A stretch of 33,298 nucleotides of DNA from Sideroxydans sp. Lineage in GTDB: Bacteria; Pseudomonadota; Gammaproteobacteria; Burkholderiales; Gallionellaceae. This document shows positions 24,061 to 25,422 of this stretch, piece after piece (the stretch's first letter is position 1; every line of letters begins with the position of its first letter). The position numbers and the translations under genes were made by a program. The notes below the pieces were generated by a model, which did no database searches, was not told where the DNA came from, and was given only the letters and a program-made list of their open reading frames with translations. The stretch spans positions 1 through 33,298 of the forward strand of contig WOZO01000219.1 of the NCBI GenBank assembly GCA_011620315.1, written 5' to 3'.

Positions 24061-24112
24061 TTCTGAGTCAAAAAAACAGTTCTGAGGGCAAAAGGCAGTT
24101 CTGAGTTCTGAG
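24061..24112 (+). repeat. Left heptamer array (TTCTGAG units)
   Basis: TTCTGAG occurs at 24061, 24080, 24099 and 24106. The first two copies start 19-base units (TTCTGAG, an A-rich middle, then CAG), the last two are contiguous heptamers. The array begins at the base after the rmlB stop codon. Confidence 0.85.
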
Positions 24113-24121
24113 GGAGTGGCT

Positions 24122-24496
24122 ATGGGGGTTTCTCGATTTGAGGATCTGATCGCTTGGCAGAAGGCTCGCGAGTTGGCTGCGGCGATCTAGCGACTGACGT
24201 CGCAGGGTCAATTTGCCAAGGACTTCGGTTTGAGGGATCAGATCCAGCGTGCGGCTGTTTCAGTCGTGTCCAATATTGCCGAAGGATTTGAGCGGGGTGG
24301 CGTTGCTGATTTCCACCAATTTCTGGTGATTGCCAAAGCTTCTTGCGCCGAATTGCGCACTCAGCTTTATGTCGCCCTTGATGTCGGCTACATTGACAAA
24401 CATCAGTTCGAAACGATTTTAAAACAGGCGGATGAGGTTGCGCGAGTAGTGGGCGGACTCAGGGCATCCGTAAAACGACATGGTACAGCCAAATGA
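24122..24496 (+). pseudogene. Four-helix-bundle protein (23S rRNA intervening-sequence / S23 type), interrupted by an amber codon
   Basis: From the ATG at 24122 the frame reads MGVSRFEDLIAWQKARELAA, stops at a TAG at 24188-24190 (codon 23), then continues in the same frame as [21 protein letters not shown] and ends with TGA at 24494-24496. Together the pieces, about 124 codons, match the whole IVP/S23 four-helix-bundle family, in which the stop position is usually a Tyr before RLT, so a single base change would explain it. A TTG at 24230 could start a shorter 88-residue product lacking the first helix. Members are encoded in 23S rRNA intervening sequences of some bacteria and as free genes elsewhere; their function is poorly known. 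The stop overlaps the rmlA start (ATGA). Confidence 0.85.
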
Positions 24497-25422
24497 CTCA
24501 ACACCCAGCACCCAGCACCCAGCACCCAGCACCCAGAACTCAGCACTCATCTAAGGGCATCATCCTCGCCGGCGGTTCCGGCACCCGGCTGTATCCGGTG
24601 ACGCTGCCCGTTTCCAAGCAACTGCTGCCGATCTACGACAAGCCGATGATCTACTATCCGCTGACCACGCTGATGCTGGCAGGAATCAAGGACATCCTGA
24701 TCATCTCCACGCCGCAGGATACGCCGCGCTTCGAGCAACTGCTGGGGGACGGCAAGCAATGGGGCATCAATCTTTCCTATGCGGTGCAGCCGTCCCCGGA
24801 CGGGTTGGCGCAGGCGTTCATCATCGGGGAGGATTTCATTGGCAGTGATAGTTGCGCACTCGTTCTCGGGGACAATATCTTCTACGGCCACGGACTCGAT
24901 AAACAGCTCGCAGCCGCTGCTGCCAGGCAAGAGGGCGGCACTGTGTTCGCCTACCGCGTGACCGATCCGGAGCGCTACGGGGTAGTCGACTTCGACTCCG
25001 GCGGCCATGCGTTGAGCATCGAGGAAAAGCCGCTCGAACCCAAGTCGAATTTTGCGGTCACCGGTCTTTATTTTTACGACAATGCGGTCGTTGGTATCGC
25101 AAAGTCTATCAAGCCCTCCGCGCGCGGTGAGCTGGAGATCACCACCGTGAACCAGATCTATCTGGAACGCGGCAAGCTGGATGTGCAGGTCATGGGGCGA
25201 GGGAGTGCATGGCTGGATACGGGCACGCACGATTCGCTGATGGATGCATCCTTGTTCATCCAGACTTTGGAGAAACGGCAGGGCTTGAAGATCGCCTGTC
25301 CTGAAGAGATCGCCTATCGTCGCGGCTATATCACGCGCGCGCAGCTTGAGGCGCTGGCACAGCCGCTGGCGAAGAACGGCTACGGCCAGTATCTGCTCAC
25401 CATTTTGAAGGAGAAGTTCTGA
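24493..25422 (+). CDS. rmlA: Glucose-1-phosphate thymidylyltransferase with a repeat-derived N-terminal extension
   Basis: The conserved body starts at [17 protein letters not shown] (residue 21) and includes [43 protein letters not shown] (metal-site Asp) and [14 protein letters not shown] [18 protein letters not shown]; it is a full RmlA catalysing dTTP plus glucose-1-phosphate to dTDP-glucose. RmlA proteins normally begin a residue or a few before KGIILAGG. Here the codon in that place is TCT, and the only upstream in-frame start is the ATG at 24493, so about 20 residues are read from the heptamer array (MTQHPAPST...). The total of 309 residues exceeds the usual 290 or so by that amount. 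The extension should be disordered and is likely tolerated. Confidence 0.95.
24497..24549 (+). repeat. Right heptamer array (C[C/T]CAGCA units), read into rmlA
   Basis: Seven contiguous 7-base units start at 24497 (CTCAACA), 24504, 24511, 24518, 24525 (all CCCAGCA), 24532 (CCCAGAA) and 24539 (CTCAGCA), with a partial CTCA at 24546-24549. Three units equal 21 bases, so translation in the rmlA frame gives a seven-residue period ([18 protein letters not shown]). Confidence 0.92.

Follow-up and report, generated by a model that had tools for sequence, protein, structure and literature searches.

In the 33,298-nt stretch of DNA analysed here (called the window), an insert of 492 bp (24061-24552) lies between two genes that we read as rmlB and rmlA, and it is composed of an S23/IVP gene framed by inverted heptamer arrays. 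Gene names used in this study (rmlB, rmlA, thyA, folA, guaB, guaA, dnaK, dnaJ, gmd and fcl) are readings of translations, and gene identities were checked against Pfam for seven proteins. The features of the locus are as follows.

22942-24060: open reading frame of the rmlB-type gene; best Pfam match PF16363
24061-24112, + strand: left arm; four TTCTGAG units and two 12-nt spacers, the first base adjoining the rmlB stop codon
24122-24496, + strand: S23/IVP four-helix-bundle gene; PF05635; TAG at 24188-24190
24493-24552, + strand: new rmlA start and N-terminal extension; ATG at 24493-24495, its frame crossing the right arm
24493-25422: open reading frame of the rmlA-type gene; conserved part from 24553; PF00483
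24497-24552, + strand: right arm; eight heptamers, the left-arm motif reverse-complemented
26856-26913, no strand assigned: gene-less mirrored pair with the unit of the window element, between convergent genes; predicted hairpin of -28.0 kcal/mol

A preliminary description of this DNA had reported mirrored 7-base repeats around the gene, a unit reaching from the base after one stop codon to just before the conserved start of the next gene, and a second, gene-less copy 2.3 kb away, and we confirmed all of these observations. TTCTGAG copies of the left arm occupy 24061-24067, 24080-24086, 24099-24105 and 24106-24112, and the units of the right arm are CTCAACA, four of CCCAGCA, CCCAGAA, CTCAGCA and CTCATCT, with the end of the array at the start of the conserved RmlA part; the halves of the gene-less inverted pair, about 2.3 kb from the gene-bearing copy, are 26856-26886 and 26896-26913. 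Matches to the two-unit pattern TNCTGRGTNCTGRG number 10 in the window, every one inside these arrays, against 0.04 expected, and none of 100 shuffles reached this number, although counts of single heptamers do not by themselves reach significance (TTCTGAG, 7 against 3.6 expected; CYCAGCA, 14 against 11.6 expected). The window copy deviates from a clean array, since the two 12-nt spacers give its left arm a 19-nt period, and the complementarity of its arms is weak (score 12, below our cut of 14). Its gene scores 126 bits against PF05635 and carries one in-frame TAG (24188-24190), which is probably a recent loss or else an assembly error. No Rfam family was matched in window positions 22900-27100 at E up to 0.5.

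Comparison within the genus gives both states of this junction. An rmlA match was obtained in 29 of 34 genus genomes, and the rmlB-rmlA junction, classed by eye as were the deacetylase, gene-less and plasmid sites below, is filled in six of them (G000, G004, G007, G013, G029 and G031), empty in 15, where rmlB directly abuts rmlA, and of other upstream context in eight; the preliminary description had proposed comparing empty and filled sites between strains and had named an invariant rmlB-rmlA spacer as evidence against its view, and the spacer has turned out to vary. In the filled junctions, the AGGAG stretch upstream of rmlA has been lost, and a new ATG is in frame, via the right arm, with rmlA. 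The new start shares bases with the IVP stop codon in the window (TGA, 24494-24496), G004, G013 and G029, and lies 8 nt past the stop in G007 and G031. Because the ancestral rmlA start codon has been lost in the window, the start is supplied by the element, which has captured the rmlA start; the locus can show how an insertion takes over the start codon of a neighbour. The TAG in the IVP gene would break translational coupling to an rmlA start that overlaps the IVP stop. Values of dN/dS at rmlB-rmlA are 0.03-0.11 in 13 of 15 pairs, the remaining two being saturated, and 0.06-0.10 in pairs including the window copy, indicating that the IVP gene has long been under selection at this junction.

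Such strong purifying selection could reflect a host function, and we have weighed the view that the unit is a regulatory or mRNA-processing module of the host residing at fixed sites, where presence and absence result from loss. Long-lasting selection, hairpins at operon junctions, their recurrence at one junction of the genus and the conservation of most Xanthomonas array sites between two species, as given in the accessible part of PMC4692102, are all in keeping with it. We nevertheless consider it improbable, chiefly on account of cyanobacterial plasmid sites that are filled in some replicons and empty in close relatives, of a related element at a different site, of a gene-less insert within an IVP gene and of window-type units beside unrelated genes in other phyla. 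At site A, an element is present in Trichormus variabilis plasmid C and Scytonema NIES-4073 and absent from four plasmids of 97.5-98.2% identity in the matching DNA, in which the upstream stop and the downstream leader are intact; the upstream gene's stop codon is where the block begins, and the overlap is 5 bp (GTAAT). Site B is filled in Nostoc C052 pD and ATCC 53789 pNsp_a and empty in C052 pA and pB and C057 p057_H, with an overlap of 0 bp. Site C is filled in ATCC 53789 pNsp_c by an element of a different unit, with an overlap of 3 bp (ATG), and is empty at matching DNA in C052 pA, pB and pD and, with slightly different sequence, in C057 p057_H and ATCC 53789 pNsp_a. Site D, between nrdA and nrdB, is filled in Nostoc edaphicum and empty in Calothrix NIES-4105 (85% identity), and the element there is antisense to the operon. 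Aulosira laxa carries a site-A-like element (416 bp, 82.5% identical) elsewhere, on plasmid2, and has no element at site A of its plasmid3.

In strain N6, the IVP gene of site B, otherwise nearly identical, is interrupted by a gene-less insert of 182 bp having mirrored arms of the site-B element's unit and some filler bases, with no target duplication. Decayed copies and one single arm were found at L337, L345 and L346, and array length differs between close relatives at these plasmid sites. The comparisons show that the block of arm, gene and arm comes or is missing as one piece at gene junctions, with no recombinase gene in it, and that it ends in heptamers with no constant target duplication; at any single site, the difference could stem from precise loss instead of gain. 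The small transposase-less mobile unit bounded by inverted heptamer arms, as imagined in the preliminary description, is thus supported by filled and empty sites, its insertion being shown by comparison of sequences. The gene-less insert of L347, a Nostoc plasmid locus like L346, encloses a second hairpin in which CCCCCAC stands, and a CCCCCAC stretch also follows the single arm of L346.

The generality of this arrangement was examined at 166 IVP loci, namely 29 from a search of relatives (PF05635 matches in 19 of 61 genomes), 57 from genomes drawn from the phylum (48 of 299) and the best 80 of a multi-phylum contig scan; more than ten phylum-sample rows, mostly fragments, were left out, and many loci from the first two sources are orthologous sites and hence non-independent. 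Flanks of 170 nt were compared with 996 control windows elsewhere in those loci. Tandem arrays of period 7 were found in 82/164 upstream and 87/163 downstream flanks against 18/996 controls over these loci, the best 80 listed included, and those of period 8 were raised as well (17/164 and 19/163 against 5/996); periods 4, 5, 6, 9, 10, 11 and 12 stayed at or near background. Within the best 80 multi-phylum loci listed, a period-7 array occurs upstream in 39, downstream in 35 and in at least one flank in 46. Mirrored arms within a locus pass the cut of 14 in 127/160 cases, compared with 90/1920 between-locus pairings and 28/160 same-strand comparisons, and the 33/160 loci under the cut include the window copy. 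Among the matches listed, the repeat unit varies between loci. Because every element lineage has its own unit, the fixed heptamer C[C/T]CAGCA / TTCTGAG, with which the preliminary description had advised searching, is unfit as a signature, and most cases would escape it.

Variation of array length among close relatives would be expected if the arrays were ordinary simple repeats that arose by polymerase slippage and had nothing to do with the gene. We regard this as having next to no chance, because among periods 4-12 only 7 and 8 are enriched, the two arms of a locus mirror each other, the unit goes with the protein and arms and gene are gained jointly, and on these four grounds slippage alone was rejected. 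Regarding the content of the units, stop codons occur in the upstream-arm reading of 56/112 heptamers and 16/23 octamers against 33/112 and 5/23 in the other direction, a contrast that shrinks to 38 versus 30 of 87 with distinct heptamer units; since related units were counted repeatedly, nothing is built on it.

The closest relatives of the window gene among the matches listed occupy other junctions, where their unit is the same or similar and equally oriented: with AAA/MoxR-type and DUF58 genes in a planctomycetotal locus (L104, Pfam-checked), downstream of a response-regulator-like gene in Thermodesulfovibrionales (L105), with MerR-type and ClpB-type genes (L107, Pfam-checked) and, with a window-like unit, at the further loci L106 and L112. 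Among the 47 multi-phylum heptamer loci listed, 70 pairs combine a protein identity of at least 60% with non-homologous flanks, and their unit similarity lies above all 2000 permutations (mean match 4.41 of 7, with at least 6 in 11 pairs; mean of other pairs, 3.64). We relied on this permutation test on multi-phylum loci because an earlier filter for different sites had missed thyA-folA pairs (L001, L020, L024 and L025). Among the octamer loci (n = 23, few pairs), the trend is not visible. BLASTN similarity between differently placed elements tends, by eye and among the matches listed, to stop in or near the arms. As far as can be judged from sequence comparison, the heptamer thus tracks the protein lineage.

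Carrier genomes tend to contain dispersed gene-less hairpins of the element's unit, and the genome of the window has several gene-less mirrored arrays sharing the unit of its element. Array hits were counted as overlapping pattern matches, arms of gene-bearing copies included, and rank tests ignore relatedness; so counted, window-unit hits number 7-47 in the six genus genomes with a window-type gene and 0-2 in 25 of the 28 others (P = 0.0001). The unit GTAGGCA gives 2-42 hits in six carriers and 0-2 in 25 other genomes (P = 2e-6), where G311 (0 hits) was taken as a non-carrier even though the consensus of its locus L067 weakly reads GTAGGCA, and the link is weaker for GGATTYN (carriers 1-28, non-carriers 0-14; P = 0.0009). 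Arrays elsewhere lacking any link to such genes had been named beforehand as an observation that would speak against the proposal: gene-less arrays are enriched in genomes with the matching gene, but G008, G014 and G016 have 12-14 window-unit hits and no PF05635 match.

One recurrent gene-less place is the junction upstream of a polysaccharide-deacetylase gene (PF01522, presumably arnD-like), which was obtained in 30 of 34 genomes and contains, by eye, TGCTGAG hairpins in 7, GGATTYN/GGATACN in 6, other heptamers in 3, other stem-loops in 5 and other context in 9. Different heptamer units stand there in different species (L238-L267), as if the junction were an insertion hot spot or arrays were replaced; in L263 (G017), another inverted repeat, beginning GTAGGTCGGGTTTCAACCCGAC..., takes the place of the relatives' heptamer hairpins. 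Twenty gene-less sites drawn from G007 and G031 include a number at the ends of genes and others within called open frames. One of the latter type, L273 near 793-819, has its array in an Ala/Pro/Ser-rich linker-like stretch, apparently in frame, of an open frame that we assume to be lpd-like.

The protein family connects the window element with intervening sequences of 23S rRNA, where S23 genes are known to occur (PMC4990558 and PMC11270868, as given in the parts available to us). Loci L095 and L103 of genome G277 are identical over 4383 bp, both with 23S motifs, and according to Rfam, the IVP gene of L095 lies within a full bacterial 23S gene, with mirrored heptamers on both sides. For the Coxiella intervening sequence, the available part of PMC4990558 describes tandem heptamers just upstream of the S23 gene, and with the mirrored arms of L095 added, rRNA and operon insertions have one build in common; these shared arms also support the mobile unit imagined in the preliminary description. 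The window element shares the protein family with such intervening sequences and contains an S23/IVP open reading frame (126 bits to PF05635, one TAG), but it lies between the protein genes rmlB and rmlA instead of inside 23S rRNA, and the description of the intervening sequences includes excision from rRNA by RNase III (PMC4990558, same part). S23 genes have also been reported in cas loci (PMC3936711, in the portion available). We found IVP copies in cas operons with cas6 and cas4 (L300) and with cmr2 and cmr3 (L301), each flanked on either side by short repeats, and this suggests the reported S23-cas link to be an effect of insertion.

Proteins of the S23/IVP type have solved structures, and their function is not known. 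Intact relatives of the window protein match TIGR02436 of NCBIfam, and relatives in the PDB are 2gsc and 2rld, both entered as uncharacterised proteins, the former described as a homopentamer in the part of PMC4990558 at hand. The sole gene of the window element is of the PF05635/TIGR02436 family and not a RAYT tyrosine transposase, and it is the only candidate for a mobility factor encoded by the element. One relative of the window protein, searched against 50,697 phage records, gave no match at E up to 1e-5. Across 11 aligned proteins, the polar residues Q40, R43, S47, N51 and E77 are invariant and E54, R58 and S74 nearly so. A conserved helix face of this kind might be the active site of an enzyme that nicks or joins strands and has escaped recognition, and the strong purifying selection and the lack of any other gene in the element are compatible with such an activity of the IVP protein itself. 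We think this quite unlikely, because the two proteins searched against NCBIfam matched no known nuclease or recombinase family and the solved relatives are listed as uncharacterised.

Spread through RNA by means of a reverse transcriptase, an idea also raised in the preliminary description, would require that the arms pair in a transcript, that the IVP protein and the enzyme act in the manner of Avd of diversity-generating retroelements and that a DNA copy is inserted elsewhere. Pairing of RNA is consistent with this, as 64 of 160 loci, against 7.6 expected, have own arms that beat each of 20 swapped partners, and so are the IVP gene within rRNA and the many sense-direction insertions in operons: both neighbours, called by a simple longest-ORF rule, are co-directional in 83/120 armed loci with two called neighbours against 159/285 control gene triplets. 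Strict sense orientation was rejected in view of this proportion and of the antisense copy at site D, which also speaks against an RNA route. Similarity of S23 to Avd has been noted (PMC10053308, in the part available), the four-helix-bundle families are alike, and a weak match of two relatives of the window protein to the Avd model NF033474 is in favour of the route, though at 20.9 and 39.5 bits it stays below the cut-off of 80. Diversity-generating retroelements contain, besides template and variable repeats, a reverse transcriptase, which the window element lacks, and no RVT_1 match was found in the window's genome (94% complete) at E up to 1e-10. Within the genus, RVT_1 occurs in 6/15 IVP carriers versus 8/19 non-carriers and is absent from G000, G004, G013 and G031, which all have the window-type gene. 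An enzyme present in the past or coming from elsewhere would be compatible with this present absence; all in all, the RNA route appears unlikely to us and the earlier suggestion was not supported.

We therefore rather favour the reading that the window unit is a decaying copy of a mobile element composed of a heptamer array, an S23/IVP gene and a mirrored array, in which the IVP protein recognises the heptamer and host enzymes do the joining. In this mechanism, the IVP protein would bind its own heptamer, either as arrays or as the hairpin of the two arms, and the bound protein would mark a copied or excised strand, which replication or repair enzymes of the host may then join at a new place. 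The varying overlaps and the filler bases would fit joining by host enzymes. Insertions would persist where they are least harmful, stop codons being the chief places, besides an rRNA loop and protein linkers.

Whether this can be extended to a bacteria-wide class of mobile elements, in which a four-helix-bundle ring recognises a lineage-specific 7- or 8-base repeat with mirrored arrays as the ends, and of which intervening sequences, S23 genes in cas operons and the orphan heptamer arrays known from several phyla are members or debris, is in our judgement an even question. The 23S intervening sequences look like already described members of it. If the class is real, protein and repeat co-vary, offering a natural recognition code from protein residues to 7-mers, and the function of S23/IVP proteins and the heptamer arrays repeatedly reported with no agent become jointly testable. 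The class would also point to an element that moves with no recognised recombinase, and it offers a simple reason for the presence of S23 genes in rRNA and CRISPR-cas operons.

We rate the class as new because every known family tested fails in a defining feature. RAYT genes encode transposases of the IS200/IS605 kind. We take them, framed by inverted repeats and accompanied by dispersed gene-less REP/REPIN hairpins, to be alike in pattern to the IVP element, which likewise has dispersed gene-less copies with the repeat of the gene-bearing copy, but whose gene encodes a four-helix-bundle protein and whose ends are tandem 7- or 8-mers. MITEs are short, gene-less and dispersed, with inverted ends; a constant target duplication, which marks MITEs and insertion sequences, is not seen here (5, 0 and 3 bp at sites A, B and C, none in N6), nor was a parent transposase seen for the IVP element. 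Heptamer arrays with no agent have been described in Xanthomonas and Nostoc (PMC4692102; unit GGGNATC in Xanthomonas, with frequent inverted array pairs), Beggiatoaceae (PMC4679880; unit TAACTGA) and Geobacter (PMC2700814), and in the parts of these papers available they stand at gene ends, as in IVP elements. The terms S23, four-helix and four helix are absent from the available main texts of the three papers, and in the open-access literature, with few subscription papers covered, we found no report that connects S23 genes with heptamer arms outside rRNA or that shows their insertion. A piece of XCC0516 compared with 369 genomes of the class gave a best match of 55% identity and brought up no Xanthomonas genome. 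The author of PMC4679880 considered, in the part available, that a repeat-binding protein might be a mobile element.

Elsewhere in the window, a 15-bp tandem repeat, GCCGCCTGTTTTTCT, is present in about six copies at 456-564 within an open frame. At 30646-31725 on the minus strand lies an open frame of 359 aa, which to our eye resembles an insertion-sequence transposase.
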